Below are positions 3,757 through 31,893 of a stretch of 32,389 nt of DNA, one piece after another. A program made the translations under genes and the position numbers. The notes under the pieces are model-generated. The model was given only the letters and a program-made list of their open reading frames with translations, made no database searches and had not been told where the DNA came from. Each line of letters opens with the position of its first letter. Within the stretch, counting starts at the first letter, position 1. The stretch is from Rhodothermales bacterium (GTDB lineage Bacteria; Bacteroidota; Rhodothermia; Rhodothermales; JABDKH01), in the NCBI GenBank assembly GCA_028284545.1, contig JANQRN010000285.1, forward strand, positions 1 through 32,389, given 5' to 3'.

Positions 3757-4761
3757 TCACTGGTCGATGAGAATATTGAAGTACCTGACCATCGGCGGGT
3801 CGACGGTATACGACTTAATATTCAGGTTCGCCGGGATATTTAGAATCGGCGTCACGCGACCGGTAGTGTCGCCCCGGACGAGGTCATACGGAACGGTCGC
3901 ATAGAACTCGGCCGAATTCATCGCATTCTGATAGTATTCGACCGGCAATCGAAATGATACCGCCACGCGAGCGGGCTCCAGAGTAGCGACAGGCTGGTTC
4001 ACCGGCGCCCCCGTCAAGCGGATGTCGACGTGCCGAACTCCCTGGGTAAACTCCGATGCAATGGCGCGAAGGCGCGTGGTGGGACGCGCAAGACGAACGA
4101 GACCGTCTAGCGAATCGGCGAGCTCGACGCGCATATCCAGGGAATCCGTTAACGACGGAACACTTACCAGCCTTGTCGGCCAGCTCTGAATCCTGTCGAT
4201 TACCGACTGTGCGCCGGAGATCACAACTGAGTCGGGTGAGATATAAGGCTCGACTATGAAGGCGTGCGTGGCCGGGACCTTAAGCGCCGCGCGCAGAACG
4301 ATTGGCACTCGCGTCGACACACGTTCTTCCCTGACTGGGGTGTACCTCCGAGGAACGGCCGCATCGACGCGTATGTCGCCGGGAAACGTGACTCCACCTA
4401 TCTCGAAGTCCACCTCCTGAAGCGCAGCGTCGATCTCAACGACGGGTCGGTTGTAGTAGACCGGCAGAATCGAAATCGCCTCGCCTGAGACGATGTACTC
4501 GACTGAGTCAGGTGCGGGTATCGACAGCGACTGATTTGCCGGAAGGTTCACGACACGCGTCGGAAGCCTTAGCGTTACCGAGGTCGGCCGACGTAGAGAA
4601 AATGCAAGCCAAAGGAGTGCCGACAGCACAAGGCACGTGGCAATGATCCATCCGCGCCCTCCAGCATGTCCGTAGTCTTCGAAATCGGGTTTGCGCTTCT
4701 TTGCCTTTGCGGGCGCTTGTCCCGGCTTCGAGTGCTTCGCCTGTAATTCGGAGTCAGCCAT
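3757..4761 (-). CDS. YbbR-like (CdaR-type) membrane-anchored protein
   Basis: 334 residues: a basic cytoplasmic N-terminus (lysine-rich, residues 9-24), one transmembrane helix near 37-56, then an extracytoplasmic beta-rich region with repeated segments such as LRLPTRVVNLP and VSFRLPVEYY that resemble YbbR domains. In Firmicutes YbbR/CdaR regulates the diadenylate cyclase CdaA, while Bacteroidota carry YbbR-like proteins of unknown role. No cyclase gene is next to it here. The ATG overlaps the TAA of the upstream BMC shell gene by one base (TAATG), indicating coupled translation. A 114-base spacer separates it from the phosphatase gene. The YbbR assignment rests on overall architecture and is moderate; the single-pass topology is clear. 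Confidence 0.7.
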   Translation of the reverse strand: MADSELQAKHSKPGQAPAKAKKRKPDFEDYGHAGGRGWIIATCLVLSALLWLAFSLRRPTSVTLRLPTRVVNLPANQSLSIPAPDSVEYIVSGEAISILPVYYNRPVVEIDAALQEVDFEIGGVTFPGDIRVDAAVPRRYTPVREERVSTRVPIVLRAALKVPATHAFIVEPYISPDSVVISGAQSVIDRIQSWPTRLVSVPSLTDSLDMRVELADSLDGLVRLARPTTRLRAIASEFTQGVRHVDIRLTGAPVNQPVATLEPARVAVSFRLPVEYYQNAMNSAEFYATVPYDLVRGDTTGRVTPILNIPANLNIKSYTVDPPMVRYFNILIDQ

Positions 4762-5192
4762 TACTGGATGCTACGGAAAGCGGCCAGCAACTGTTCTTTC
4801 GTAGCAGAGGCCACTGCTCTACCGACTATCGGGAAGTCCGGCGTGCTACGCGCCAGGGCGCGCAACTCGAGGACGGTCATATCTGCGGGGTCCTTCGCTC
4901 GCCGCCCACCAGGCGACTGGAGGATGGCAACTACATCTGTGGAAGGCCTGGGGATAACATGCCGGGCGACGAACTCCCCAACACGATTTGCAGCAACCTC
5001 GCCGGCATCGACAGCGCTCTGCACCGCGGCGACCTGCCCTTCGACACGAACCGTAGCGAGGCCGGCGTCTGCGAGCTCAATCCCCAGAACGCGGACTTCC
5101 GCCGCCTTGACCATCGCGTCGGCAGCTTCCAGGGCAGCAACGAGACCACGGGTCTCGATCATACCCAGCGCAGGCCCACTGAAGGCGGTCAT
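4761..5192 (-). CDS. BMC-domain shell protein with C-terminal helical extension
   Basis: 143-residue protein whose residues 7-93 form one BMC domain ([22 protein letters not shown] at the start, then [14 protein letters not shown] and HVIPRP). It would form hexameric tiles of a bacterial microcompartment shell. The pore-loop region reads ADAGLATV instead of the KIGxG seen in its neighbour, so the pore chemistry should differ. Beyond the BMC domain comes a basic GGRRAK linker and a 38-residue segment (105-142, starting [10 protein letters not shown] and ending LLAAFRSIQ) that looks like a small helix-loop-helix of SAP/Rho-N type. That last assignment is inference only. The start overlaps the stop of the preceding shell gene (TGATG), and its stop overlaps the YbbR-like start. 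Confidence 0.9.
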
Positions 5193-5479
5193 CAGTCGAT
5201 GCCGGGAAGGATCGCTTCGACCTCGGAATGCGGCCGCGGTATGACGTGGACCGAGACCAGTTCTCCGACCCGTTCGGCAGCGGCTGCCCCTGCGTCCGTG
5301 GCGGCCTTGACCGCACCAACATCACCCCGCACAAGAATGGTGACGTATCCGCCGCCAATTTTCTCTTTGCCAACAAGCTGAACACGTGCAGCTTTCACCA
5401 TGGCGTCGGCAGCTTCAATAGCGCCGACGAGACCCTTCGTTTCCACTAAGCCTAGCGCGATGCCGTAGTCGTCTGCCAT
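5192..5479 (-). CDS. BMC-H microcompartment shell protein (PduA/EutM/CcmK-like)
   Basis: 95 residues, exactly the size of a single-domain BMC-H hexamer protein. It has [18 protein letters not shown] at the N-terminus, the pore-lining KIGGG at 40-44 followed by [16 protein letters not shown], and [11 protein letters not shown] near the C-terminus, all close to the PduA/EutM consensus. It is the first gene of a minus-strand unit, 37 bases downstream of a strong sigma70-like -10 box. No pentameric vertex protein (EutN/CcmL type), no BMC-T protein and no recognisable encapsulated enzyme lies in this window. These shell proteins may therefore act with genes elsewhere or form a non-polyhedral assembly. 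Confidence 0.96.
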
Positions 5480-17218: not shown

Positions 17219-18616
17219 CTACTGACCCGAAGTTGGATCTGCGTACGGCCGCGGTTTCATTCGTGTGGCACCGACCTGACCGTCGAACCTGCGAAGACTT
17301 TCGTCGATTTGCTGACGCGTCTGCTGCAAGAGCTCGCGGTTAAGTGGCCGGCGCATCCGCTCGTCGAGCGAATCCAGCACCTTGGCCTGCAGAACGATCA
17401 CGAGTTCCTTCTGCGAGACGGCGCGCTGGGTGCGACCAAAAACGTATCGCAAGCCCAGGAACCAACCTGGAAGATCCTTCAACACCGGTATGCCCCGACG
17501 TGAAATGGTCTCCTCTGTCGTGTAGAGGCCACCAATGACCGTCTGCTCGCCGTCGAGCAGGAGCACCTGCGTATTCGCCGTGCTGCGATCAATTTCGGGT
17601 CCTGCCGGCGTCGGGGTGCTTCCCGACTTCTCAACCTGCACTGCGAGGTGTATGAACTCGACGTCTGACTGACCACCGTCGTCTTCGGTCACCGTTTGTG
17701 TGATGAACGTCGGCACTACGTCAACGATGATACCCGTGGAGAAGAACTGCGTAATGGTGTTGCCGGCGAAGTCACGCACCTGGACTGGCACGTCAGCACC
17801 GATCTGCATTCGTCCCTCAATGCCACTCTGTACGGTTACGTGCGGGCTCGCTACCGTCTCGCCCACACCCTCGGTCTCGAGCAGTCTGAAGAACTGCGTC
17901 AAGTCTGAGAAGTCGATCCTTGACGGAGCAACTACGACGTCCTGAATGCTGCTGAAGATGTCGTTGGTTTTGAGGAAGAACTTCGGGCTGTTTTCACCAG
18001 CCGCACCGGTCCCGCCAGCACCGCCACCGCCGCCGCCGCCGGATCCACCCTGTCCTCTACCCCCACCTGCTTGCTGGTCGCCGAAGAACACGTTCCAGTC
18101 GATACCTGTGTCTCTCGCCATCGAGTGATCGATCTCAAAGAGCAGGGCGTTGATCTGGATCTCACGCGTCTCGTGCGTTGCGGGCAGAGATAACCCGGCG
18201 CCACCCTCACCCGCCGCCGTCACGACGCCGGTATTGGGATCGACCGTGGCTGCGGGCGCGACGATGAAGAACTGCTCGGTCTCAGAGAAGGTCAGACCGT
18301 TGTACTGCAAAACCAGTTCAAAAGCGTCGAAAAAGTGCATACTGGCAATTGAAACGCCAATAGGGCCCGTACGCGATTCGGGATCAACGATCTGCTTTCC
18401 GGTGACCCGTAGAAAAATCGGATCAACGAACTCGACGAACCTGTCAAACGGCGTCGAAGGCAGGAACGACACGAGTTGATCGGGCGGAATGAACGTCCGA
18501 ATCTGCCGTTGCGGAGGGTTCTGCGCCTGTGCAGTCTGCACCAGCGGCCCGAGGGCAATCACGGCAAGTGCAAGGCTGGTAAGTACGAACTTACCGGTGG
18601 GTTTGGGACATCTCAT
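17219..18616 (-). CDS. pilQ: Type IV pilus secretin (PilQ-like)
   Basis: 465 residues from ATG 18616, chosen because AGGAG sits 8 bases upstream and a good signal peptide follows (ending near AQA in front of QNPPQRQ). An ATG 13 codons upstream lacks such a site. The protein is the outer-membrane channel through which the pilus passes. The secretin domain covers the C-terminal half: VASPHVTVQSG, GADVPVQV, STGIIVDVVPTF, LLLDGEQTVIGGLY and the signature RRGIPVLKDLPGWFLGLRYVFG in its usual place near the C-terminus (two parts, hyphen-free in the protein). The N-terminal part is short, with room for about one secretin N-domain, and no AMIN-like domains are evident. A Gly-rich loop lies near residues 195-215. 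A C-terminal ~45-residue tail follows the secretin domain. It is the last gene of the pilT-pilMN-pilOP-pilQ unit. Confidence 0.93.
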   Translation of the reverse strand: MRCPKPTGKFVLTSLALAVIALGPLVQTAQAQNPPQRQIRTFIPPDQLVSFLPSTPFDRFVEFVDPIFLRVTGKQIVDPESRTGPIGVSIASMHFFDAFELVLQYNGLTFSETEQFFIVAPAATVDPNTGVVTAAGEGGAGLSLPATHETREIQINALLFEIDHSMARDTGIDWNVFFGDQQAGGGRGQGGSGGGGGGGAGGTGAAGENSPKFFLKTNDIFSSIQDVVVAPSRIDFSDLTQFFRLLETEGVGETVASPHVTVQSGIEGRMQIGADVPVQVRDFAGNTITQFFSTGIIVDVVPTFITQTVTEDDGGQSDVEFIHLAVQVEKSGSTPTPAGPEIDRSTANTQVLLLDGEQTVIGGLYTTEETISRRGIPVLKDLPGWFLGLRYVFGRTQRAVSQKELVIVLQAKVLDSLDERMRRPLNRELLQQTRQQIDESLRRFDGQVGATRMKPRPYADPTSGQ

Positions 18617-18624
18617 GGCGTTTA

Positions 18625-18629
18625 CTCCT
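18625..18629 (-). promoter_or_regulatory. Shine-Dalgarno site deciding the secretin start
   Basis: AGGAG on the minus strand, 8 bases before ATG 18616. It supports this start rather than the upstream in-frame ATG at 18655. Confidence 0.8.
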
Positions 18630-18658
18630 GCAACGCTCGGGTTATTGAATAGCATCGA

Positions 18659-19666
18659 TCAATTGGTGGGTTTGGCGGGCGCGAGTCGGGACGTACCAAA
18701 GGCCTGGCGATACGCTTCTCCCGTCTCCAGAGTCAGTTCGACCTCGTCAATGATTCCGCCTTTGTTCAGGCGGGCGATTACGAGACCTTCAGACGGGTTG
18801 ATGTAAGTAATCTCGCCGAGGTAGACCGGATCACCGACGCCGAGCTTCACGAAGTCGTCGCGATGCCGGAAGACGGCTTTTCCTTCCACAATGGAGAACA
18901 GGCTCGCCGACTCGACGTCAAGCAGGTCGTAGGTGTTCGGCGGAATCTGGTCAAGAATGAGCGGGAAGAACGGGTTCACCGCCGGACGTTCATCCGGTAG
19001 TACGTCGGCCGGTACCGGCGGAAGATCGAGATTGGCCGCTGAGGTAGGCAGCAAATCGTCTTCAGCTCCCAGGTCGTCTTCGCCGACAGGGGCGCTCAAT
19101 CCGTTCTTGCCGCCGAAGAATGCTTCAACGCGCATGGAGAACGAGACCATGACCTCCAATTTGTTGTTGCCAGTGACCTCGTCTTCAGCCATCAAGTCGA
19201 TGTTCTCGAGCTGCAGATCCTTGACGCGGTAGAAGTCCCGGCTGTTCTCAACTTCCCAAATGAACTTGTAGAGCGACGAGTAATAGCCTCGGCCGGTGAT
19301 CCGGAGCGAGTATGTGCTGTAGTCGCTCGTGCGATCCGTGCCTTCAACAACAACGTCGAAGTTCTTGAAGCCGGTACGCGAGCGCTGGTTGATGTAGTTG
19401 ATTACATCAGCTGAGTTGAGCTTCTGCGGAATGACCTTGTAGCGTGCACGCCATTTGGCAATTGCCTCCTCAGCGACACGTGCCGACGTGCCCTCTTCGG
19501 CCAGCAAGGAAGTGACCTCTGCCTGGCGAAGCCGCGCCAATTTTTCGGCTTCCTCAAGCTGCTCGAGTTCCTTGGGCTGATCGAAAATGGTGAGGTAGAC
19601 CCCCGCACCCGTGACGATAGCCGCAAGTAGGGCAAGTACGATAATGTTGTATCCCAGCGTTGACAT
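18659..19666 (-). CDS. PilO-PilP-like fusion, inner-membrane alignment protein
   Basis: 335 residues. One N-terminal transmembrane helix (about 5-27), a heptad-like coiled coil (about 32-60, rich in E, L, A), then a periplasmic alpha/beta domain to ~185 (contains VINYINQRSRTGFKNFDVVV and YSLRITGRGYYSSLYKFIWE) that fits PilO. An acidic, Pro-rich linker (about 190-240) leads to a C-terminal domain (about 250-330: LLDVESASLFSIVEGKAVF, VKLGVGDPVYLGEITYI, GLVIARLNKGGIIDEVEL) resembling the small beta domain of PilP, which binds the secretin. It would link the inner-membrane platform to PilQ, encoded 42 bases downstream. PilP is normally a separate lipoprotein; here no lipobox is needed because the domain is anchored by the PilO helix. 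PilO is well supported; PilP is my inference from position and pattern. Confidence 0.8.
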   Translation of the reverse strand: MSTLGYNIIVLALLAAIVTGAGVYLTIFDQPKELEQLEEAEKLARLRQAEVTSLLAEEGTSARVAEEAIAKWRARYKVIPQKLNSADVINYINQRSRTGFKNFDVVVEGTDRTSDYSTYSLRITGRGYYSSLYKFIWEVENSRDFYRVKDLQLENIDLMAEDEVTGNNKLEVMVSFSMRVEAFFGGKNGLSAPVGEDDLGAEDDLLPTSAANLDLPPVPADVLPDERPAVNPFFPLILDQIPPNTYDLLDVESASLFSIVEGKAVFRHRDDFVKLGVGDPVYLGEITYINPSEGLVIARLNKGGIIDEVELTLETGEAYRQAFGTSRLAPAKPTN

Positions 19667-19712: not shown

Positions 19713-21557
19713 TCATTGTAGCACGGGAGCTCCCGCGGCCGCAGCTTCCTCTTCCGAGAGGATGCGAACCTGCTCGCGCAGATATCTGGCAGCCTCGGGG
19801 AGTGTATTCTGGATCGGCATCCGCATCACATAGGTATAGACCGGCCAGTCGCGGATTTCGGAGAACGTGACAGTCTCAATTTCGCTCTCTGTGCGACGCG
19901 CCAGTTCCACGATTCGGTCTCTCGACGTAGCGTTTCCGGATAGAATCAACTGACTGCCCTGCGGTCGCCAGTTGTCGATCCAAATGCCGCGTACCTCTGA
20001 TACCTCGCGAGATGCTGCTTCCAGTGAGCGACTCCAGATGTCGCTACCAACAAGCAGGGAATCGAGCACCTGCAGTGCACGCATATAGCCCGTCGTGACC
20101 TGGTTCAGACTGTCGACGCGTGCCTTCAGCACTGCCGGATCTGCGTTGGCGTACTCCGGTGCGTATTGGGCAATCTTCTGCCGGTGTTCGCGCTCCTTCG
20201 CCTCGTTCGTGAAGTAACGCGCAACCCAGAACAACGCCGAGGCGAAGATGAGTCCATATAACGCCATAACATGCCACGTGACGGGCAGTGACACCTTCCG
20301 ACGAAGTAGCTTCTTTGGAAGCAAGTTGATGTCGTCAAACGAACCCTGGTAGAGGTCGTCAGACGAAAGCCGGAGCGCAGCACCCGTCGCCAGCAGAAAC
20401 GAGGTACTGATCTCGTCGCCGGTTACGTCGCTAACGGTTGTGGGCACGTATTCGCGAAGCGACTCAACACGCGTGTCAGAGAAGAACATCCGGAAGCTCT
20501 CGACGATGGCTTCCTCGCGGTCTTCGCTCAGCAACAGAACGTGTTGCACGTCACCGATCCCATACTCGTCCTGGAGCAGCAGCACGCGGCTACAGATTGT
20601 TTCGGGCGCGTCATACGTGGTAATCGATCTAAGGCTCTCGTAGTGCAGGAGCTTATCGTCCTCCATGAAGACCACGAGGGTGTCTTCCAGACCGGCCCTT
20701 ACGACGAGCGTCTTTCTGACGTCGCCAGGAAAGAATCCGGGGGTACTTGATGGCTCGTCGTCAAGCTCCTGGTTTGCAAGATCAGACGTAACGAGGTAGT
20801 ACGCGGTGCGTGCAAGACCGAGATAGATCGAGATCTCGTTGTCCAGCAGCCTGGCGGCGGGCATTCGGGTACGCCGGCTGCGCATGGTCGTAAGCGTTCG
20901 CGCGACGGGGCCACCTTCGGCGCGCACTAGCGCCAGAAATCTGTCGTTGCCCGCTTCGGTCGGCGTCATCGGGACAAATCCTACGCTGTCACCGTCGACC
21001 TCTGTGCCAAGTTGTTCGGCGAGCTGCGCGATGAGCGCGGCCTGGCCCGTCTTCGGTTTCCGCTTCTTCTTCGCCTTGCCGTCATCCGCAGCATCGGTGG
21101 ACGGTGCTACTTCCCCGAGCCGAAGTTCTGTGGTGGTAACGTAGGCAGATGTTTCGCAGAAGGATACCAGCGGCTCGGCGTAACCCACGTCGGCGCACTC
21201 CTTCAGGATCTCGCGAAGCTCTTCTTCAAACCCGATGGCGGCGCCTTCCGACGTCGGCGCGACGATTCCGTCCACGGGATCCGCGTCGTTGGCCCCAAAC
21301 TCGGAGCTCAAGAACAGGTCGTTGTTGTTCGCGGACCCGAACTTGATGGTGAAGTCGGTACCGAGTCCCGAGTCTTCGTCATCCATCATGACACTCGGCG
21401 ACTCCGGCTGCGAAGCGGCACTTGGAGACGTGACCTGGCGCGAGAAGTAGCGGACTACCTCTGGACCTTTGTCGCTGTTGCGAACGAGTGCGGCGCTAAC
21501 CCCGCGGCCCGACGCCATAACGCCCAGGATGGCACCATTCGCTGCGTTCCGTTTCAT
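19713..21557 (-). CDS. PilM-PilN fusion protein of the pilus alignment subcomplex
   Basis: 614 residues. Residues 1 to ~400 are cytoplasmic and fit a divergent actin-like PilM: an ILGVMASGRGVSAALV start like a phosphate-binding strand-turn, DNEISIYLGL and LVVRAGLEDTLVVFMEDD in the middle, and SFLLATGAALRL at ~386-397 near the end of the fold. At 410-414 there is INLLP, the conserved PilN N-terminal motif that in classical systems docks into the PilM groove. A single transmembrane helix (about 428-446), a coiled coil (450-500) and a periplasmic PilN-like domain (505-590) follow. So the two partners are covalently joined. A Lys-rich insert lies near 161-169 and an acidic Ser-rich insert near 50-100. 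The neighbours pilT upstream and pilOP-like downstream agree with this role. Confidence 0.85.
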   Translation of the reverse strand: MKRNAANGAILGVMASGRGVSAALVRNSDKGPEVVRYFSRQVTSPSAASQPESPSVMMDDEDSGLGTDFTIKFGSANNNDLFLSSEFGANDADPVDGIVAPTSEGAAIGFEEELREILKECADVGYAEPLVSFCETSAYVTTTELRLGEVAPSTDAADDGKAKKKRKPKTGQAALIAQLAEQLGTEVDGDSVGFVPMTPTEAGNDRFLALVRAEGGPVARTLTTMRSRRTRMPAARLLDNEISIYLGLARTAYYLVTSDLANQELDDEPSSTPGFFPGDVRKTLVVRAGLEDTLVVFMEDDKLLHYESLRSITTYDAPETICSRVLLLQDEYGIGDVQHVLLLSEDREEAIVESFRMFFSDTRVESLREYVPTTVSDVTGDEISTSFLLATGAALRLSSDDLYQGSFDDINLLPKKLLRRKVSLPVTWHVMALYGLIFASALFWVARYFTNEAKEREHRQKIAQYAPEYANADPAVLKARVDSLNQVTTGYMRALQVLDSLLVGSDIWSRSLEAASREVSEVRGIWIDNWRPQGSQLILSGNATSRDRIVELARRTESEIETVTFSEIRDWPVYTYVMRMPIQNTLPEAARYLREQVRILSEEEAAAAGAPVLQ

Positions 21558-21586: not shown

Positions 21587-22972
21587 CTAGCGAAGGAGCT
21601 GCTGCAGACGACGCTTCACGTTCGCGTAGTCCATCGCAGTTTCGACAGTGATCTGATTCAGGTGCACGAGACGCGCAAGGTCCTGCTCCAGTGTGATCTG
21701 TCCGTCACCTCCTCCTTCCCACATCATCTGGTAGATCTCGTTGACGTTGTCGTTCTTGATGGCTGCCCGCGACGAACTCGTCATCCACAGGACCTCTTTC
21801 GCCATCACGCGACCGCCGCCAACCTTCGGACAAAGCTTCTGTGACACCACACAGCGCAGAACGTCTGCCAGGCGGTTCCTGACGCGCTCCTGCTCTGATG
21901 GCGGGTATTCGGCGATGATTCGGGCGATACTCTCAACGGCTGACGACGTGTGCAGCGTGGAGAACACTTTGTGGCCCGAGTCGGTGATTTCAAGTGCTGC
22001 CGAAATCGTCTCTGGATCGCGAAGCTCCCCGATCACAACGATGTCAGGGTCCTGGCGAAGCGCCTGGACAATTCCGTCTTTGAATGACGGCGTATCTCGC
22101 CCAACTTCGCGATGCCTCACGATGCACTTCTTCGAAACGTGCATGTATTCGATCGGCTTCGCGACGATCACGATGTGACCCGCAAAGTCCATGTTGTTCG
22201 CGTCGACGACGGCGTCCAGCGTGGTACTCTTACCGGAGCCGGTTACACCCGTAACGAGTACGAGGCCATCGCGCTCGTGTCGGAACATGAGTCCCCGCTC
22301 CACGCGCGGACCAAAACCGAGTCCCTTGAGCGGGCGAACTTCGTCAGCGATGGCGCGCATGTTGAGCGCGAGCTGATCGTAGTCGAAGTAGATCGTACAG
22401 CGGAATCGGCGGTCCCGGCCGTCATGTCCGGGGACCGGGAGCGAATAGGAGATGTCAGCTGCGCGCCAGCTCAGCAGGCCGTCGACGTACACCTCCGACA
22501 GCAAGTTGGCGATCAGCACGTTCGTTTCATCAACCGTGTAGCCACCAAGTCCTTCGTCGGGCTTCTTGTCGCCGTCAACGCGAAGCCAGATCCGCTCATT
22601 GGCAGAAGTGCCGCCGAAGTCGATGTCGGACGCGCCCACTTCGAGCATCCTGCGCAGGAAGAGTTCGACGTGGAGTCGCAGAGCCGTACGGGCCTTGTCG
22701 GGCAGCGCGAACGTCTGCTCCACAACGTAGCGAATCCGCTCCTCGCCCTGGAGCGAATACGGGATATCCTCAACCAGCTGCTTGCAAACCTCAGGCAGCG
22801 GCGGGATCAACATTGACTTGATTTCCCGAGGCCCCCGGTCAGCAGCAGGCAGATCAGGAAGCACCGCGTCTGCCGGCGGTTGCGGCACCGAAGCCGAAGC
22901 GGCCTCTTTGGCAGCCTTTACCCGCGACTCAGCCGCCTGGCGGGCCAGCATTTCACGAAGCGAACTTGACAT
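21587..22972 (-). CDS. pilT: Type IV pilus retraction ATPase (PilT-like)
   Basis: 461 residues, about 100 more than usual PilT because of an Ala/Pro-rich N-terminal extension (1-55). The ASDIDF motif (114-119) is PilT-like. Walker A is GVTGSGKS (242-249), Walker B is IVVIGELRDPET (311-322), and the His box is HKVFSTLHTSS (334-344). The C-terminal part ends in the typical IKNDNVNEIYQMMWEGGGDG and LARLVHLNQITVETAMDYA elements. The Asp box reads AKPIEY (271-276) where EDPIEF is expected. No tetra-cysteine zinc site is present, which distinguishes it from PilB. It is the first gene of the second pilus unit, downstream of two terminators. PilU is an alternative name. Confidence 0.93.
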   Translation of the reverse strand: MSSSLREMLARQAAESRVKAAKEAASASVPQPPADAVLPDLPAADRGPREIKSMLIPPLPEVCKQLVEDIPYSLQGEERIRYVVEQTFALPDKARTALRLHVELFLRRMLEVGASDIDFGGTSANERIWLRVDGDKKPDEGLGGYTVDETNVLIANLLSEVYVDGLLSWRAADISYSLPVPGHDGRDRRFRCTIYFDYDQLALNMRAIADEVRPLKGLGFGPRVERGLMFRHERDGLVLVTGVTGSGKSTTLDAVVDANNMDFAGHIVIVAKPIEYMHVSKKCIVRHREVGRDTPSFKDGIVQALRQDPDIVVIGELRDPETISAALEITDSGHKVFSTLHTSSAVESIARIIAEYPPSEQERVRNRLADVLRCVVSQKLCPKVGGGRVMAKEVLWMTSSSRAAIKNDNVNEIYQMMWEGGGDGQITLEQDLARLVHLNQITVETAMDYANVKRRLQQLLR

Positions 22973-23237: not shown

Positions 23238-24914
23238 CTAGTCGACAACCGTGTCCTTTTGCGAGGCAACAACAACCTTCGTCGCGTTGCGAATCGTGCC
23301 AAGTTGCTTACCGAGCTTCGCAATCGCTTCACCCGAGTAGTAGAGACCCGCGTTGCCACCGATGTCCATGCTGATGTTGCCTGTTACGGAAGGATCAGTG
23401 ACGCAGCTACCTTCGGCAGCTGAAAGCGTCACGACGACGACGAGGTCCTGCATGTCGAACGCGCTCGAACCCGTGTCGGTCGTTCCCAATTCGAACAGGT
23501 AGATCACCTGGTTTTCAGCGAGGCTGACTTTGCCGTCTGCACCGATGTACTCACCGATGTACTCCTCTACAGATGACTGGTCCAGGTAACCAGAAACAGA
23601 CGGGACTTCGTCCCCGTCACGGAGCACCTGCAGCTGACCGCCACCGGTCTCCGAATTCTGCTCCATCGCGATCTGCCAATCTGAGTTCAGGTCACCGCTT
23701 ACGAGCGTGTCGACCTTCGACCAGGACCGTGAGCTGATCGTCAACGGCGTTCCGGCAGGCAACGAGTCTGGCACAGACCAGTCGTAGGTGAGGCCGGTGT
23801 TAAGGTTACCATCCAGCGCAAGATCCCAATCGCCCCACGGCTCGCTCTCGTCGTTACCGATGTGCAGCTTAGCCGTGACAGGCATGTCATACTCGCCACC
23901 CGCGCTAATCGCGGCGCCGAGAACATCAAACTGAGCTTTGTAGTCGATCTGCGGTACGACGTCGTTTCCGTCGATGTCAAAGGGGACAACGGAGCACGAT
24001 GATTCAGTCGACATCGGCACTGCCTCGTAGGCGACTACCGCACCGTAGATCTTGGCGTTTCCGCTGATATTCACATCAACAGTGGCAACAGCCGCTTTGC
24101 GGATCATCACAACGCCTTCCCACATGAAGTTGCCGTTCACGATGAAGTCGCCGTCCTCAACGACCAGAAGGCCGGCACCTGAGAACGAACCCGTCGGAGC
24201 GAAGTCGCCGGCTACGTGAACGATTGCAGGCTCTGCATACGTGCCGTAGCTGCCGAGGAAGGGAGCCGCAGCGTGGATAACCTGCGCATGTCCCGCCGCC
24301 TCTGCGTAGAGCGACTCAAACCAGGCGATGTCGGCACCACTGACGATGCTGCCTTCTCCGCCTTCACCCGTAATCTGGCTGTCGCCGAGCTGCGCGGCAA
24401 CGTCATTGACCTGGTCGCCAGACGTAACCATGATGCCGTGAGCGGGCTTCAGGAATCCGCCACCGCCACCACGGGATGGCATCCGGACGTCTTCACCGGA
24501 GATTTCAAAGCCACCACCGTCGCCACCAACCGTGATCGTCGGACCGCTGACCACCAGCGTTGCCGGAATTGGCGCCTCAAAGATCACGTTGGAGTTAATG
24601 GTGTGAATTGCCTCACCAACCTTTCCGGTTGATGTGATCTCCATGTCACCGTACATGACCTCCGAAATCGCGAGGTCATACTCGCCCCCAGCGACTTCGA
24701 CGTCGTCCCAGCTCGATCGAACGGCAGATAGATCCTTTTTAGTTTCGCTAAGCCCGCGATCGAGGCCCGATCGCGCGACGTCGCGCGCGAGTACAGCGTA
24801 CTCGTACTCGCCTGTGGTTTCGCTCGTGGCAATCCTCGTCTGCTGGCTCGAGAAGAGCACAGTGCCTAGACCAAGGATGGCGGCGATTGCGATTAGAAGT
24901 GTTGCGCGGCCCAT
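23238..24914 (-). CDS. Large minor-pilin-like protein (PilX-type N-terminus)
   Basis: 558 residues. A hydrophobic helix at about 3-23 starts almost at the N-terminus (MGRATLLIAIAAILGLG), followed by a helix ending VARSGLDRGLSE, the pattern of PilX N-terminal domains. The remaining ~500 residues are secreted, Gly/Asp/Val-rich and beta-like. They include a glycine-rich stretch near 125-155 and a repeat-like strand region (VHVAGDFAPTGSFSGAG, VVEDGDFIVNGNFMWEG, NISGNAKIYGAVV), which recall DUF7305-like or polymeric beta-helix rungs seen in large pilus-associated proteins. At least two Cys in separate places could form a disulfide. Likely a pilus-tip or adhesin-like component. No classical leader with G and Glu5 is present. 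It is the last gene before the tandem terminators. Confidence 0.72.
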   Translation of the reverse strand: MGRATLLIAIAAILGLGTVLFSSQQTRIATSETTGEYEYAVLARDVARSGLDRGLSETKKDLSAVRSSWDDVEVAGGEYDLAISEVMYGDMEITSTGKVGEAIHTINSNVIFEAPIPATLVVSGPTITVGGDGGGFEISGEDVRMPSRGGGGGFLKPAHGIMVTSGDQVNDVAAQLGDSQITGEGGEGSIVSGADIAWFESLYAEAAGHAQVIHAAAPFLGSYGTYAEPAIVHVAGDFAPTGSFSGAGLLVVEDGDFIVNGNFMWEGVVMIRKAAVATVDVNISGNAKIYGAVVAYEAVPMSTESSCSVVPFDIDGNDVVPQIDYKAQFDVLGAAISAGGEYDMPVTAKLHIGNDESEPWGDWDLALDGNLNTGLTYDWSVPDSLPAGTPLTISSRSWSKVDTLVSGDLNSDWQIAMEQNSETGGGQLQVLRDGDEVPSVSGYLDQSSVEEYIGEYIGADGKVSLAENQVIYLFELGTTDTGSSAFDMQDLVVVVTLSAAEGSCVTDPSVTGNISMDIGGNAGLYYSGEAIAKLGKQLGTIRNATKVVVASQKDTVVD

Positions 24915-24970: not shown

Positions 24971-25600
24971 TTATCCCTGGTAGCCCTGGAAGCTGAGTCC
25001 AGCTGGCGCCAGCGTTATGCCCCAGCGAAGCTGATTCGCCACGCGGTGCGCGCCGTCCTGCGACATCGTGTTCGCGCCAACGGCGTTCGACATCCTGATC
25101 CGGAGTTTTCGTGTCTCCGGCAGCGTCGTGTGAATGTCGTTTTCGTCCAACGTGTCGATTTCGAAAGCGACAAGCGAGTTGGTGCTGCCACCAGCGGCGC
25201 TCCAACCTGCGCCTGCGTTTTCGAACCGCTGAACCGTGAATGCCGGTACCGCTGACCCGTCGACAACGAGCGAGTCAGTCTGCGTTGCTACGTAGCGAAT
25301 CTCACCACGCGTACCCGCTGACGTGAGTCCCCAGAACTGAAACAGCGTTGTCACCTCAGTGCTGTCGTAGTCAACGTTTGTGTATGCCGTAATGACGTCG
25401 TTACCGGGGGTGTTGCGATACCCGGCGTTCGACAAGTCTCGCTCCAGAGTCTCTGCGAAACTGAGCGTGGCCTTCTTGGCCTGGTAGAAGAGCGTGTCTT
25501 CAACGCTGTTGTTCTGAACTCGCATCTGCAGCGTGAAGATCATCATGAAGAGCACGGCTGCAACAATCGTCGCTGTCAGTTTGTCGAAAATGAAAATCAT
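24971..25600 (-). CDS. Minor-pilin-like protein
   Basis: 209 residues with a hydrophobic helix at about 8-25 (TATIVAAVLFMMIFTLQM) just after a short charged-containing start (MIFIFDK), then a polar helix (VEDTLFYQAKKATLSFAETLERDLSNAGY) whose ending resembles PilW/GspJ-type minor pilins, where a helix runs into an ERDL..AGY motif. The globular part is beta-rich. No GFxxxE cleavage motif is visible. It lies 56 bases upstream of the large PilX-like gene and 71 bases after the preceding pilin-like gene. Role as a pilus-priming or adaptor subunit is inferred from position and fold. Confidence 0.7.
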   Translation of the reverse strand: MIFIFDKLTATIVAAVLFMMIFTLQMRVQNNSVEDTLFYQAKKATLSFAETLERDLSNAGYRNTPGNDVITAYTNVDYDSTEVTTLFQFWGLTSAGTRGEIRYVATQTDSLVVDGSAVPAFTVQRFENAGAGWSAAGGSTNSLVAFEIDTLDENDIHTTLPETRKLRIRMSNAVGANTMSQDGAHRVANQLRWGITLAPAGLSFQGYQG

Positions 25601-25671: not shown

Positions 25672-26169
25672 CTACCATTGTGGCGAGAATTGACGAGTGA
25701 TGTTGATTGGCGTGAATAGCCCGTTCGCTCCGCCAACGGTAACCGTCACCTGCTTCGTGAGTGTTGGCGCTGCCGAAGGCGTCCCCGACTCATCAACGTA
25801 CTTGACGTCCACGTCGACACTGAAGTTGAACCCGTTGCCATTCGCCATCTCGTAGAACACTTCGTGACCCGCGAGTGAATGGAAGTCGTCGATGTCGCCC
25901 GCATTCGCGTAGAGCGATCCACCAAAACCGGTGGCGTGCGTCAGCGCGGACGTGTTCGGATCGAGCCGGGTAACCGTGCCGTTTGCTACGGCCGAGTCAA
26001 ACGGCTTTGTCGCGATATACGCCATCGCCTCTGAGGCAACGGCGTTGGCCATCACCTCGAGTTCCCCTTTCACGAGACGCTGCTGCGTGAGCATTTCTGA
26101 TCGCTGGTAGTTGGCGGTGAAGGTCATCACCGTGAGCACCGCCATGAATGCGCCAATCGTCTGTGACAT
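25672..26169 (-). CDS. Minor-pilin-like protein
   Basis: 165 residues from ATG 26169. The protein starts MSQTIGAFMAVLTVMTFTAN, a hydrophobic helix at once, followed by a polar helix (RLVKGELEVMANAVASEAMAYI) and a beta-rich body with a C-terminal ITRQFSPQW. A GTG at 26235 could add 22 residues (MLKPGEILPG...), but these put a polar segment before the helix, so I prefer the internal ATG. Neither start gives a classical prepilin leader, although a Gly at residue 6 precedes the hydrophobic run. It is the first of three minor-pilin-like genes downstream of pilB, after a 281-base gap containing several inverted repeats. Confidence 0.68.
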   Translation of the reverse strand: MSQTIGAFMAVLTVMTFTANYQRSEMLTQQRLVKGELEVMANAVASEAMAYIATKPFDSAVANGTVTRLDPNTSALTHATGFGGSLYANAGDIDDFHSLAGHEVFYEMANGNGFNFSVDVDVKYVDESGTPSAAPTLTKQVTVTVGGANGLFTPINITRQFSPQW

Positions 26170-26291
26170 GGTATCGGCTGTTAGAAAGTGGTCCGTTATC
26201 GAGAATCCGGGAAGAATCTCTCCCGGCTTCAACACGGTACTCCAAACGCTGTACCAGATAAACGACTGATTTACAACATTTTGCAGGAACA

Positions 26292-26450: not shown

Positions 26451-29156
26451 CTACTCGATCGCCGTGACTCGGATCAACTCGTCGAGAGATGTCTCTCCGA
26501 CCTTCATGATCTCCCGCGCAGAGTCCTGCAGCGTCAGCATCCCCTCCTTCTTGGCCTGCGCGAGAATGGCGTCCTCATCGATCGCCTCGGCTGACTCCAG
26601 GATGAGGTGACGAATCGCCTGTGAGAAGTAGAGCGTCTCGCAGAGTGCGCGGCGACCTTTGTAGCCTGAGCCTCCACACGTCTGACACTTCGAGCGAACT
26701 GCCTTGTAGAAAGTGCCCTCCGCAATCTCCTCGTCGGAGAATCCGACCTGCTTCGCCAGGAGCGGATCTGTCTCGTCGTCCACAACCTTACAGGTTGGGC
26801 ACAGCGTTCGGATGAGACGCTGCGCAACAACCAGGTTGATGGCGTAGGCAATCAGAAACGGCTCGACGCCCATCTTGTACAGTCGACTGACGGCACTGGG
26901 GGCATCGTTCGTATGGAGCGTGGAGAACGCAAGGTGACCGGTATTTGCCAGCTTAATGGCGAGGTCTGCCGTTGCCTTGTCGCGCATCTCCCCCACCATT
27001 ACCACGTCTGGGTCGTGCCGGAGAATGCTGCGGAGCGCCTGGTCCAGGTTCAGCTTGGTGTTGAGCTTGATCTGCCGGACACCGTTGATAATGTATTCAA
27101 CTGGATCCTCAACGGTCAGCACGTTGATCTCTGGAGTGACCACCTGGTGCAACGCGGCCACGAGCGTAGTACTCTTACCCGAACCAGTTGGACCCGTAAG
27201 GATCACCATCCCATGCGGCTGTCTGATCGCCTGGTTGAACTTCTCCAACGCAACGTCGAGCATCCCGAGTTTGCGCAAATCGGTCAGCACTTTACGGTCA
27301 TCCAACACTCGAATGACAATACTCTCGGCACGAAGCTCCTGGCTTGCGGTGGCGATCGGCAACACCGAAACACGATATCGGATTAGCGCACCGTCTATCC
27401 GTCGCTGAATAAAGCCGTCCTGGGCCGCGTCACGCTCAAAGCGGTCGACGTTTTTCGAATTATCCTTGACGACCGCCAGGAATGCCTCGGGGTGCACCTT
27501 CTCCTCGGTGTGCCACTTAAAGAGGCGCCCGTCAACGCGGAAGTGTATCTCCACCTTCCGCTGCGGATTCGGAAAGACGTGAATGTCGGACGCGCCGCGT
27601 CGGGTTGCCTCGAGTAGCGTGGCCTCAAACAGGTTGATCAGCGTCGAGCGGCTGATCTCCGCCTCCAGCGCCGACTCATCGATGAGCTCTCCCTCTTCCT
27701 CAAACGACGCCCCGAGGTCCATAGCCATCGGGTCGTCGGTCATCCGGTCGAGAAACTCGTTCCGCCGCGGGAACGCCTGATGTATCAGGTCCTCAACTTC
27801 TGATTCTGAGGCGTAGTAGAGTTGAAAACGGCCAACCTTCAACTGCTGCAGCAGTCGGTGGATCTCAGGCCGCGCCGGGTCGTGCGTCACGAACACGAGC
27901 TTCGCGCCGCCCGTCGCCGAGTCCATCTCGTACTCGACGGGAAACAGCTTCATCGACAGCAGCTCGTCGCGCTTTTCCTCGGGAAAAGCCTCCATCACGA
28001 GCTTCGCAAATTTCGGGTCGGGATCGCTGAGCTCAGCCGTCCGGAAGGCGTACACCGACGCGGCTTCGCAAAACACGATGTCGCGGTCAACACCCTTGAT
28101 GTCTGCCAGGAGTCGCCACAATGCCTCACGCGGATTGTTTTTCTGCGCCTCCATCGCGTCGAGGACCTGCTTCTGCGTCACGACCTGTTTGTGGACCAGC
28201 ATGCCGACGACGCGATCGCGGAGCGCGCCGTGTATCTGGTCCATGTCGTATTTCTCGGAGGCAACAGTCGTCGCCGGCGGAGCCGTTTCTTCGGTCTCGG
28301 GCGCCTTGGGCTCCTCCACCAGATCATCCGCTGGACTGACCTCGACGAGCGGTTGCTCGACCAGATTGTCCAGGCCGGCAGTGCTGACCGAATCGATCAC
28401 GGTCTCGACTTCCCCGTCTGGCTCGGGAATGATGTCCGGCTCGGGAATGATATCGGGTACGATTCCCGCTGTCTCCGCCGGGTTGGCATCAGTCTCGTCC
28501 AGCCAACTTGCGACCTCCGGATCTATCTGCGGGAGCGGATCGCCGGGGAGATTTGCGTCGGTAAGTGGTTCCGGTGGCAACTCTGGCAGTGCGCTAGCCT
28601 GCTCCTCAAGCATATGATCCGGATCGACGAAGTCGGCCTCCTGGACAATTCCGGTGGCCACAATGCGTTCGCGGACGACATCTCGAGGCGCGTAGCGGAG
28701 TACGATGTTGACACCGAGTCCGCCCAGCAGCTCCCGATGCGCAGGGTGCAACGGGTCGTGTGACGCCAGGGCAATGGTGAAGTCGAGCAGCGACGGGTCG
28801 GTCAATATCTCGACCGGAAGGAGTCCGCGTCTAAGGAGCTCCAACGAAACATCCTCCTCGAACAGCCCGAGTATGGACCTCACCAGGTCGTCGGGTGGGT
28901 TGTAGACGTCGACTTCCTGTGGCTGGATCCCCTGCTGCTTTGCCGCCTCGGCGAAGACCGCATCGGCGTCAACGTCTGGTCGCGTCGTTAGCTGTCGCCA
29001 TGAAACGTTCGGCGTGCCAGAGGACACCACAACGTCGGCGAGTACCTGGGCAGGTACGTCGCCACGCGCAAGCAGGGCCGCAACTACCGGATCGTGAGAC
29101 GTTGACCCTTCCGTGTCAACGGCGCCGGGATTCCATTGGGTGTCGTGTTCGCTCAT
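26451..29156 (-). CDS. pilB: Type IV pilus extension ATPase (PilB/GspE family) with long N-terminal extension
   Basis: 901 residues against the usual ~560-580. The C-terminal motor is complete: ASDIHVFP (522-529), Walker A GPTGSGKS (655-662), Asp box TVEDPVEY (681-688), Walker B VVMVGEMRD (718-726), His box HLAFSTLHTN (741-750), and the zinc site CPTC (786-789) with CQTC (824-827). Residues about 303-460 look like a PilB/GspE N-terminal (MshEN-type) domain, and residues about 22-175 look like a second, more divergent copy. An acidic Pro/Glu-rich linker (190-300), with a PEPDIIPEPD repeat, joins them. I do not see the RLG-type c-di-GMP motif clearly in either. It powers pilus extension at the cytoplasmic face, together with the PilC encoded 30 bases upstream. 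Confidence 0.95.
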   Translation of the reverse strand: MSEHDTQWNPGAVDTEGSTSHDPVVAALLARGDVPAQVLADVVVSSGTPNVSWRQLTTRPDVDADAVFAEAAKQQGIQPQEVDVYNPPDDLVRSILGLFEEDVSLELLRRGLLPVEILTDPSLLDFTIALASHDPLHPAHRELLGGLGVNIVLRYAPRDVVRERIVATGIVQEADFVDPDHMLEEQASALPELPPEPLTDANLPGDPLPQIDPEVASWLDETDANPAETAGIVPDIIPEPDIIPEPDGEVETVIDSVSTAGLDNLVEQPLVEVSPADDLVEEPKAPETEETAPPATTVASEKYDMDQIHGALRDRVVGMLVHKQVVTQKQVLDAMEAQKNNPREALWRLLADIKGVDRDIVFCEAASVYAFRTAELSDPDPKFAKLVMEAFPEEKRDELLSMKLFPVEYEMDSATGGAKLVFVTHDPARPEIHRLLQQLKVGRFQLYYASESEVEDLIHQAFPRRNEFLDRMTDDPMAMDLGASFEEEGELIDESALEAEISRSTLINLFEATLLEATRRGASDIHVFPNPQRKVEIHFRVDGRLFKWHTEEKVHPEAFLAVVKDNSKNVDRFERDAAQDGFIQRRIDGALIRYRVSVLPIATASQELRAESIVIRVLDDRKVLTDLRKLGMLDVALEKFNQAIRQPHGMVILTGPTGSGKSTTLVAALHQVVTPEINVLTVEDPVEYIINGVRQIKLNTKLNLDQALRSILRHDPDVVMVGEMRDKATADLAIKLANTGHLAFSTLHTNDAPSAVSRLYKMGVEPFLIAYAINLVVAQRLIRTLCPTCKVVDDETDPLLAKQVGFSDEEIAEGTFYKAVRSKCQTCGGSGYKGRRALCETLYFSQAIRHLILESAEAIDEDAILAQAKKEGMLTLQDSAREIMKVGETSLDELIRVTAIE

Positions 29157-29186: not shown

Positions 29187-30551
29187 CTAATTACCCATCC
29201 CGTTCATGATGTCGTTACTCGACGGCTGGATCAGGGCGATCTCCGAGGAGATGATTGTCAGGAAGCAAATTGCAATCGTGATGAAGATGGCCACGGCCGT
29301 CTGAATGCCTTCGACGGCGCCCTTCAATTTGAGCGTAGTCTCAGCTTCGTAGTAGTCGGCCATTTGCAGGGCGCTCATCCGCACGTTACCTGTTTCGGCG
29401 CCACTTCTGAATCGCGCGAGCGCCATTGAAGTGAACACACCGCTTGCTTCCATCGACCTGACCAGTTCAGCTCCTTGAGCAACCATCATTGGAACGGTGA
29501 CGGTCTTAACCTGGTGTTCGATGTAGGTGTTACCGCAAGCTTCGGCCGCAATCTTGATAACTGTAATGTTATCTCCACTACCGGAATAGAGGACCGCGAA
29601 GACGCGACAGAAGATTTCGATATTCAGCTTGTGCAACAGCGACCCAATGACCGGTATCCGGATCATTGACCTGTGCAGGATGAACGTTCCCCTTTTTGAC
29701 TTCGCGAACGCGACGAACCCGATTATGGAAGTGGCCATTATCAGGAAGACCCAACCATAGTTGTCGTCGAGCCAGTTCGAGAAGTCGAGTGTTTTTCGTG
29801 TGAGTGGCGGCAGCGGGATGTTGAACCCCTCAAACAACCCGGCAGTCTGCGGGAAGATGTACCACACGTACCACACAAACGCGGCGATGAGTACGGCGAC
29901 CGTGATGGCAGGCGTAATCATAGCGCTGCGCACGCTTTTCCGGAACTCATTCTGCCGTTCCAGGAAGCGCGCCGTTGACTCGTAGATCTCCGACATGTTA
30001 CCGCTACGCGAGGCGATGCCGAGCATGTACGCGGTGAACTTGCCGATCATATGCTGGTGCTTCATGAAGGCCTGCTGCGCCTCCATACCAGACTTGAGAT
30101 CCGCGTTGAGGTCGCGGATGACCTGTTTCAGACTGTTGGACGAAACGTCGTTGACAAGGAGGTTGAGCACCTCGTCAAATGGTAGCTTCTCCTTCAGCAG
30201 GTTTGCGCTGAGTCGCACAAACATGATGATGTCCTGGCGCGGCGGCTTTCGCTGGACGTCGAAGAGCTTCTTCTGGACCTTGAGGACGTCGAGGCCCATC
30301 TTGCCCAGGGCTGAGGAAATCTCCTCAGGAGAGAACGCCTTCTGCTCGCCCTTGACGACCTTCCCATTGGGGTGGCGCACCTTGTACTGGTACAGGCTGC
30401 GCTGCTGCACGTCGTTCGAGCGAAACCCGTGCTTCGTCGCAAGCTCGGTTACCTTTTTCTGGGCGTTGCGTTTCGACGGTGCGAAGACCGTGCCCTGAAC
30501 GGGCTGGCCATTCTGGCCGATGCCGCTGAACCGAAACTCTCTTACTGCCAT
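29187..30551 (-). CDS. pilC: Type IV pilus inner-membrane platform protein (PilC/GspF family)
   Basis: 454 residues, about 50 more than typical. Two T2SSF domains are present (about 105-235 and 310-440), with transmembrane helices near 211-233, 266-284 and 415-437. Characteristic segments include LSANLLKEKLPFDEVLNLL, the RSGNMSEIYE segment with the conserved Gly-Asn/Glu region, FCRVFAVLYSGSG and SGAETGNVRMSALQMADYYE. The N-terminus contains two similar ~45-residue modules (4-47 and 54-95). Each begins with an F/Y-rich strand, then NGxxVxG, then a helix, whereas PilC usually has one. It recruits PilB and connects it to the pilus base. Located between the small pilin genes and pilB. Confidence 0.94.
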   Translation of the reverse strand: MAVREFRFSGIGQNGQPVQGTVFAPSKRNAQKKVTELATKHGFRSNDVQQRSLYQYKVRHPNGKVVKGEQKAFSPEEISSALGKMGLDVLKVQKKLFDVQRKPPRQDIIMFVRLSANLLKEKLPFDEVLNLLVNDVSSNSLKQVIRDLNADLKSGMEAQQAFMKHQHMIGKFTAYMLGIASRSGNMSEIYESTARFLERQNEFRKSVRSAMITPAITVAVLIAAFVWYVWYIFPQTAGLFEGFNIPLPPLTRKTLDFSNWLDDNYGWVFLIMATSIIGFVAFAKSKRGTFILHRSMIRIPVIGSLLHKLNIEIFCRVFAVLYSGSGDNITVIKIAAEACGNTYIEHQVKTVTVPMMVAQGAELVRSMEASGVFTSMALARFRSGAETGNVRMSALQMADYYEAETTLKLKGAVEGIQTAVAIFITIAICFLTIISSEIALIQPSSNDIMNGMGN

Positions 30552-30630: not shown

Positions 30631-31041
30631 CTAGTTAGCCGTGATCGAGCCGTCATACCTGACTACGGTCGAGTCAATGCTGTATTCGTAGATGTACGTG
30701 CGAACACCGAGTTCGGGGTATCGCAGGCTCACCGCCGTTATCTGAAGGTTATTATCGTCCGCCAGCGTAATTCTAAAGAAGCCGTCGTTCGTGTATTCGC
30801 CGAGGAAGAGTTTCTTCATTCCATCTGTCTCAAGACCGGCGTACGAGGCATTGCCGCCGCTGTACGGATCGCGCTTCGTCTTCCAGAAGACCGCTTCCGA
30901 AGCAATTGTCAGGTTGCGTCCTATGAGCGTGTCTGTGGCGCTCTGGCGCATCTTCTCGTCCATCGCGAAGAGTCCGGCAAGGACCGACACGGCGACGATT
31001 ACGATCGCAAATACGAGAAGGAGAAGTTGTTGCTGTCCCAT
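30631..31041 (-). CDS. Small pilin-like protein 2 (MGQQQLLLLV family)
   Basis: 136 residues. The first ten residues, MGQQQLLLLV, are identical to those of the upstream pilin-like protein. A hydrophobic helix continues to about residue 25, followed by a polar helix (KMRQSATDTLIGRNLTIASEA) and a beta-rich C-terminus containing LFLGEYTNDGFFRITLADD. This is the layout of a short type IV pilin, but Glu5 is replaced by Leu and the only possible leader is Met-Gly. GAGGT at 31053-31049, 7 bases ahead of ATG 31041, is a good ribosome site. It lies between the other pilin gene and pilC. Probably a minor or alternate major subunit. Confidence 0.78.
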   Translation of the reverse strand: MGQQQLLLLVFAIVIVAVSVLAGLFAMDEKMRQSATDTLIGRNLTIASEAVFWKTKRDPYSGGNASYAGLETDGMKKLFLGEYTNDGFFRITLADDNNLQITAVSLRYPELGVRTYIYEYSIDSTVVRYDGSITAN

Positions 31042-31189: not shown

Positions 31190-31630
31190 TTAGCTGGAAG
31201 CAGCCGCGTAAGACGTGTTCACCTGCGTGTCAATGGCGTCCGGCGTCGTGCCCGTGACGGTAACCGTAATCTGGTTGCCGTTCGAAGCGCTGGTAGCCGT
31301 GATCACAACTTCAGTGCTTGTGCTCGCACCGTCAATCGTGAATACACCGTTCAGGTTCTCGTAGTTCGATCCGTTAACCGGGTAGCCGAGCTGTGAGAAA
31401 GAGATACCACTCCAATCGCAAGTAGTGGCGCAGGAGTTGTTACCGCCGCCAAAAGCAGTCGGCTTAAGCATCCACGCCTGTGCGTCGGAAGCAACTCGGA
31501 TCGCGTCGTTGACGAGCGCGTCAGAGTTGGCTTTTTTCTGGTTTTCTGAGAATGCCTGGATACCAACGACGACCGCGAGGCCGACGATAACGATACCAAG
31601 GACAAGAAGAAGCAATTGCTGCTGACCCAT
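31190..31630 (-). CDS. Small pilin-like protein 1, probable major subunit (MGQQQLLLLV family)
   Basis: 146 residues. MGQQQLLLLVLGIVIVGLAV begins a single hydrophobic helix (about 4-25) at the very N-terminus, continued by a polar, Asn/Lys/Ala-rich helix to ~55. A globular beta-rich domain follows with two Cys (67 and 71) and a Thr/Ser/Val-rich C-terminus. The size and helix-then-globular plan fit a type IV pilin. It lacks the G/F-T-L-x-E motif: after Gly2 the fifth mature residue would be Leu, not Glu. GGAGG lies 7 bases before ATG 31630, the strongest ribosome site in the locus, and the gene is first in the operon. Both suggest high expression and the major-pilin role, but this is inference. 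Confidence 0.8.
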   Translation of the reverse strand: MGQQQLLLLVLGIVIVGLAVVVGIQAFSENQKKANSDALVNDAIRVASDAQAWMLKPTAFGGGNNSCATTCDWSGISFSQLGYPVNGSNYENLNGVFTIDGASTSTEVVITATSASNGNQITVTVTGTTPDAIDTQVNTSYAAASS

Positions 31631-31637
31631 GACAGAG

Positions 31638-31642
31638 CCTCC
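31638..31642 (-). promoter_or_regulatory. Strong Shine-Dalgarno site of the first pilin-like gene
   Basis: GGAGG on the minus strand with a 7-base spacer to ATG 31630. It fixes the start so that the protein begins MGQQQ with no longer leader peptide. Confidence 0.82.
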
Positions 31643-31893
31643 GTGTTAGTGCGTATTACTCAGGTGCATATCACCCGTTGTAGCCGCGACTGGTATCGGC
31701 GAAGCGAAAAACCGCTTAAACACGCAGCAGACACGGAAATCTCTCGCGAATAGGAGGCCGAATCGCCGCCTGAGCTCCCTATGCGCTGTTTTTACAGCCA
31801 CTTGAACCGCTATTCGAAGGCTCTATGAACGTGAAATGATCATGAACCACGGCTGTATCTTCGCAGTCGTCACCGTTCTCTCACACTTCCTTC
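31643..31893. other. Divergent intergenic region between pilin operon and dehydratase gene
   Basis: About 250 bases that must contain the promoter of the pilin operon (minus) and of the dehydratase gene (plus). I find no convincing sigma70 pair or sigma54 GG-N10-GC element. A small inverted repeat GCTGT-TTTT-ACAGC lies at 31785-31798. No ORF, RNA gene or clear terminator is seen. Confidence 0.5.

Follow-up and report, generated by a model that had tools for sequence, protein, structure and literature searches.

Relatives of Rhodothermus, Balneola and Ignavibacterium appear to build type IV-like pili from leaderless subunits, mostly without a detectable prepilin peptidase gene

Cutting of the prepilin leader has so far been thought common to all type IV-like filaments. 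According to a recent review, the last residue of a prepilin leader is invariably Gly or Ala, while Glu at mature position 5 (Glu5) is frequent and not universal (PMC10191384), and the prepilin peptidase belongs to the ancestral five-protein core of type IV filaments (PMC10191384, PMC6668835). MSHA loci lack a peptidase gene, yet they always occur in genomes that hold another one, and the enzyme is thought to be supplied by a different system of the cell (PMC6668835). The T2SS-like/T4aP-like system of Cytophaga-type Bacteroidia, a T4aP-related machine from the broad phylum to which the window also belongs, encodes its own A24 peptidase (PMC5553014, PMC6668835). In Melioribacter roseus, pilT, pilQ, pilB and pilC have been reported with neither pilA nor pilD (PMC3534657). 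Within the open literature we found no paper on MGQQQ or leaderless pilins, or on a peptidase-free type IV pilus.

We describe here an operon in a 32,389-nucleotide stretch of DNA from a Rhodothermales bacterium (hereafter the window), in which two tandem pilin-like genes lead a set of pilus machine genes. The features run as follows in the direction of transcription.

31646..31648, minus strand: in-frame TAA upstream of pilin 1, excluding a longer leader (read from the sequence)
31638..31642, minus strand: Shine-Dalgarno GGAGG, 7 nt from the pilin 1 ATG (read from the sequence)
31190..31630, minus strand: leaderless pilin 1, proposed major subunit, 146 aa, MGQQQLLLLV start
30631..31041, minus strand: leaderless pilin 2, tandem paralogue of pilin 1, 136 aa, same MGQQQLLLLV start
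29187..30551, minus strand: PilC/GspF inner-membrane platform (Pfam T2SSF, 4.3e-26)
26451..29156, minus strand: PilB assembly ATPase, 901 aa (Pfam T2SSE, 1.5e-98; best solved relatives are PilB)
25672..26169, minus strand: mpA, minor pilin-like, 165 aa, MSQTIGAFMAVL; conserved start at 26169, not the mechanical one at 26235
24971..25600, minus strand: mpB, minor pilin-like, 209 aa, MIFIFDKLTATIVAAV; leaderless, many homologues having Asp as residue 6
23238..24914, minus strand: mpC, minor pilin-like, 558 aa, MGRATLLIAIAAIL; leaderless
21587..22972, minus strand: PilT-type retraction ATPase (TIGR01420, 9.5e-91, at 304.5 bits under the curated cut-off of 319.1; best solved relatives are PilT)
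19713..21557, minus strand: PilM-PilN-like fusion, GspL-like layout (PilN match weak, 0.099; identity mainly from position and synteny)
18659..19666, minus strand: PilO-like protein (no Pfam match; synteny in relatives)
17219..18655, minus strand: PilQ secretin (Pfam Secretin, 3.8e-26; PilQ of solved structures)

Given sufficiently long contigs, the same gene order recurs in Rhodothermota, Balneolota, Ignavibacteria and KSB1; some clusters in relatives lack mpA-mpC. The initial annotation had spoken of a recognisable PilB/PilC/PilT machine, and the T2SSE, T2SSF and TIGR01420 matches together with the solved PilB and PilT relatives agree with it. As in T4aP, PilB and PilT ATPases, a PilC platform, putative PilMN/PilO-like alignment proteins and a secretin are encoded in one operon. 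Unlike in T4aP, the pilins lack both Glu5 and a class III signal peptide, there is no prepilin peptidase, PilM and PilN appear fused, and no PilP was identified. A type II secretion system would have no PilT and a GspG-type N_methyl pseudopilin; here PilT is present, and no N_methyl protein was found in the genome that the window comes from. The PilM-PilN fusion with its GspL-like layout apparently extends across the lineage. The PilB of the window carries an N-terminal extension of about 300 residues ahead of the portion matching solved PilB, and the PilB homologues of Balneolota and Ignavibacteria have about 600 aa as against 901.

The start of pilin 1, whose 146-aa product begins MGQQQLLLLVLGIVIVGLAVVVGIQAFSENQKK, leaves no room for a leader. 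The TAA is the sixth codon before the ATG at 31630 on the minus strand, and none of the five sense codons in between (CAC GGA GGC TCT GTC) is a start codon, so that no leader can be encoded. The start set by the GGAGG site, as first annotated, is therefore sound, and a longer start with a leader was rejected because upstream stops exclude it in the window and in nearly all homologues. Likewise, the claimed absence of a G/FxxxE motif, with Met-Gly alone ahead of Gln3, holds: pilin 1 has no match to PF07963 (N_methyl), and neither pilin matches any family in Pfam or NCBIfam. Pilin 1 thus has no class III signal peptide, that is, no leader ending in Gly or Ala before the helix, and in place of the usual, not universal, Glu5, residues 2-8 read GQQQLLL in nearly all members. 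Two details of the initial annotation need correction. The hydrophobic run begins at L6 and not at residue 4, G2-Q5 being an uncharged polar segment, and the helix of the AlphaFold model begins already at residue 2. Position 5 would be Leu only after loss of Met1 or of Met1-Gly2, and it is Gln in the full-length product.

This start is conserved far beyond the window. MGQQQ opens 206 of 210 distinct homologues, and the remaining four begin MG[STN]QQ. In 199 of the 210, the interval from the nearest in-frame stop upstream to this ATG contains no ATG, GTG or TTG, and in 136 that stop is at most five codons away. Residues 1-27 are invariant among 27 pilin-1 sequences of the order; between pairs that are identical or nearly so in protein over codons 3-27, codon identity is only 53%, so it is the peptide that is conserved. 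Such extreme conservation of the first eight residues, with Gln3-Gln5 nearly invariant, sets these proteins apart from classical pilins, as does the lack of a leader. Homologues are present in 42 of 60 relatives and in 101 of 297 genomes of a phylum sample (100 with the window's own genome excluded), at up to eight copies per genome and often in tandem. In a wider collection of genome contigs, tblastn confirmed hits to the pattern MGQQQLLL at 461 places, the start being invariant there partly by construction; their record titles name Rhodothermota, Balneolota, Ignavibacteria/Melioribacteraceae, KSB1 and Neomarinimicrobiota, and one contig is labelled Patescibacteria and possibly misbinned. The less biased profile and PilC-anchored searches still returned MGQQQ or MG[STN]QQ, the last PilC-anchored scan requiring M-x-x-Q-Q, which a pilin without Q4-Q5 would escape. 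Rare paralogues at four loci (L147, 2292-2705; L160; L171; L175) vary at residue 3 alone (MGSQQ, MGTQQ, MGNQQ), with G2, Q4 and Q5 unchanged.

The pilin and the platform protein travel together. Cognate PilC, separated from other platforms by a clear gap in the protein search (at least 299 bits against at most 119, with one contig-edge fragment at 176 bits as the exception), is found in all 100 MGQQQ-positive genomes of the phylum sample, own genome excluded, and only two genomes (G241 and G272) have this PilC lineage with no pilin match, a coincidence of 100/102. The initial annotation had proposed to check whether such proteins always neighbour pilB/pilC: at 39 of 60 PilC genes chosen regardless of pilin, an MGQQQ-type pilin lies on the same strand within 3.5 kb upstream. 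The other 21 loci comprise contig ends, six second-copy PilC genes and genomes with the pilin elsewhere; among the PilC-anchored regions that are not cut off by a contig edge, about a dozen have no MGQQQ gene next to PilC. The second, divergent PilC copies (300-370 bits, loci L150-L155 in G062, G147, G130, G276, G170 and G144) have no MGQQQ gene adjoining, and at L153 leaderless mpA/mpB-like proteins of MGQT- and MGAILD-type lie near the second PilC, perhaps as a second leaderless system.

Detection of the A24 prepilin peptidase (PF01478) follows a different set of pilins. Of the 100 MGQQQ genomes, 11 have a PF01478 match and 13 a PF07963 match; all 11 genomes with A24 also have N_methyl pilins, two have N_methyl only, 87 have neither, and A24 never occurs where N_methyl is missing (Fisher p = 5.5e-13). 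A24 is therefore tied to classical pilins and not to MGQQQ pilins. If MGQQQ pilins needed the enzyme, the detection rate of 11/13 would lead one to expect it in about 74 of the 87, as against 0 seen. A24 was detected nowhere in 89 of the 100 genomes, nearly all of them at least 97% complete; since PF01478 missed it in two of the 13 classical-pilin genomes (G130 and G220), single absences are soft. Complete or isolate genomes fit this picture, since both A24 and N_methyl are absent from the complete genome of Roseithermus sacchariphilus and from those of Salinivenus lutea, S. iranica, Fodinibius halophilus and F. sediminis. In KSB1 and Neomarinimicrobiota, all six genomes tested carry A24, and classical pilins occur there as well; the dissociation accordingly stands for the Bacteroidota (in the GTDB sense) only. 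Where examined, the classical system occupies a cluster of its own, peptidase gene included: classical SLTE pilins stand beside A24 at L128, L129, L138 and L139, apart from the MGQQQ operons where both occur, as with the GFSLTELLIVLAIIGIL pilin of L138, which lies next to A24 at a chromosomal site away from the MGQQQ operon. A profile of the short Bacteroidia-type A24, whose rows were poorly aligned and which matched no control, had no match in the 60 relatives, a result that carries no weight.

The initial annotation had allowed for a separate classical pilin gene as the real subunit. None turned up in the draft genome from which the window comes (81% complete), and the classical prepilin motif (G/A-aromatic-S/T-L-x-E), which the same scan found in 5 of 12 control loci, is absent from 60 PilC-anchored regions and 80 MGQQQ loci. 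One sub-threshold A24 match in the own genome (21.3 bits) falls in a 599-aa transporter-like protein and was rejected as a peptidase.

We consider a type IV filament system whose pilin genes encode no leader peptide to be the best explanation of this locus, with a probability of roughly three in four. Judged from sequence, the system would work like a type IV pilus machine, and with subunits that carry no class III signal peptide, and no peptidase found in most of the genomes, it would not be a classical member. Relatives of Rhodothermus, Balneola and Ignavibacterium thus appear to build type IV-like pili from leaderless subunits, mostly without a detectable peptidase gene. It is also probable, if slightly less so, that these systems form a lineage of type IV filaments, spread over several FCB phyla, that does without leader and peptidase, in which all pilin-like subunits are made in near-mature form and the invariant Gln-Gln-Gln replaces the processed, Glu5-paired N-terminus.

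On this leaderless reading, the subunit would be inserted so that its very short N-terminus, uncharged apart from the amine, stays in the cytoplasm while the Ser/Thr/Gly-rich domain reaches the periplasm. The soluble domain of pilin 1 has 2.6% Lys+Arg and 44% Ser/Thr/Asn/Gly, and in the pilin-1 alignment the cysteine count is even in every Cys-containing member but one, with positions that vary; among 150 coding sequences the counts are 0 in 94, 1 in 13, 2 in 41, 4 in 1 and 5 in 1, so the even-cysteine rule is not strict. Such a composition would fit an oxidising, extracytoplasmic domain; the uncharged N-terminus alone is no argument for an N-in topology. Methionine aminopeptidase is expected to take off Met1 when Gly follows. 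No prepilin peptidase would be needed, and at most Met1 would be removed by this general enzyme, Gly being residue 2. PilB and PilC would then pack the pilin helices directly, PilT would retract the filament and PilQ would export it. The invariant Gln3-Gln5 segment may take over docking or capping, which in classical pilins fall to the processed N-terminus and Glu5, perhaps by hydrogen-bonding neighbouring subunits or by docking on PilC in place of the pairing between N-terminus and Glu5.

A cut after Gly2, one of the two alternatives left by the initial annotation, is unlikely, though it has most in its favour among the competing explanations. An unrecognised or very divergent peptidase would remove a Met-Gly leader and leave Gln1-Gln2-Gln3-Leu4-Leu5, and the N-terminal Gln might then cyclise. 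Gly2 is indeed invariant in all 210 distinct pilins, classical leaders likewise end in Gly or Ala (PMC10191384), and PF01478 is imperfect, as the two genomes with N_methyl pilins and no A24 match demonstrate. However, removal of Met1 or helix packing would explain Gly2 equally well, the operon has no recognised peptidase gene, and 87 of the 89 system-bearing genomes without A24 are also without classical pilins. In classical systems the peptidase site is common to all subunits, whereas the other putative subunits of this operon do not share it. Homologues of mpA begin M[S/P/A/T/Q]QT or MN, most having M-x-Q-T or M-N/S/E-x immediately ahead of the helix, those of mpB begin MxxLLD and those of mpC MG[K/R]; starts such as MSQT, MPQT, MQQT, MIFIFD and MHVLLD in mpA and mpB have no Gly at position 2. 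Since mpA-mpC are leaderless and have no Gly(-1) in common, cleavage behind Gly2 does not hold as a rule for all the pilin-like proteins of the operon. The unprocessed alternative is favoured, because A24 is missing from most genomes with the system and tracks separate classical pilins, and because the other pilin-like subunits of the operon share no Gly2.

From their position, single N-terminal helix and size, we infer that mpA, mpB and mpC are minor pilins, and they may make up an initiating tip complex in leaderless form. The mpC homologue at L142 matches DUF7305. In a Rhodothermales MAG, PilB is followed by two mpA-mpB-mpC sets in a row (L032, 5202-11163), which suggests alternative tip complexes.

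It is somewhat less likely still that the MGQQQ proteins serve a secretion or DNA-uptake machine as accessory membrane proteins, with another, unrecognised gene encoding the real subunit. AlphaFold predicts for pilin 1 (58-row alignment, pLDDT 87.9) a helix from residue 2 to 55 and five strands, and for a Melioribacteraceae homologue (39 rows) it reaches pLDDT 86.1; both models have an N-terminal helix of 53-54 residues, which starts at residue 2 or 3 and ends at 55, and a sheet of 4-5 strands. This layout suits a pilin, and it resembles classical N_methyl pilins (PF07963) in the single N-terminal hydrophobic helix that is predicted to continue into a long alpha-1, followed by a C-terminal beta domain. 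Foldseek against PDB and viral structures gave no significant match (best E in the PDB about 0.1), as an accessory protein would allow, and the pilin fold, for which the initial annotation had proposed structure prediction, is thus not confirmed statistically. The top 50 hits of the Melioribacteraceae model, none significant, include PilA (5ihj, 5cfv), a type IV pilus (8tob) and PilE (4noa). A profile search against PDB sequences returned four weak matches to mature pilins (E 1.1-4.8), all of which pair query residue 9 with chain residue 6, that is, residue n with mature residue n-3. If this register is right, Leu8 is the counterpart of Glu5, and the protein exceeds a mature pilin in length by about three residues, or by two once Met is removed. 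MGQQQ paralogues are sometimes unlinked to machine genes, which would also suit an accessory role. Against this, MGQQQ genes stand at the head of the operon, frequently side by side, and number as many as eight per genome, no classical pilin accompanies them in the 60 PilC-anchored regions or the 80 MGQQQ loci, and several clusters offer no other candidate subunit, since they hold only MGQQQ proteins with PilC, PilB, PilT, PilMN, PilO and PilQ.

Processing by an A24 peptidase that belongs to a different system of the cell, on the model put forward for MSHA pili, is very improbable and for the Bacteroidota largely refuted: such sharing is documented in other systems (PMC6668835) and A24 does occur in 11 of the 100 genomes and in 6/6 of the KSB1/Neomarinimicrobiota genomes tested, but 89 of the 100, nearly all at least 97% complete, have none, A24 tracks N_methyl pilins only, and there is no ordinary leader to cut. 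MSHA loci resemble this one in lacking the peptidase gene; here, in contrast, the enzyme goes undetected genome-wide in most cases.

If pilins without a leader are indeed assembled in this way, prepilin processing, one of the five ancestral core functions, would be dispensable in type IV filaments, and what the leader, its cut and Glu5 do for filament assembly would become testable. It would also explain pil gene sets recorded as incomplete, such as that of M. roseus (PMC3534657), which by its published gene list resembles this locus in having pilT, pilQ, pilB and pilC with pilD not found. Whereas that paper reads a pilus without pilA, we propose the MGQQQ proteins as the missing pilA. Annotation through PF07963, PilFind/SignalP or PilD would be blind to such pili.

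Apart from the pilus operon, the only microcompartment genes recognised in the window are two that encode BMC-domain shell proteins (PF00936), placed in tandem on the minus strand (4761-5192 and 5192-5479) beside a YbbR-like gene.
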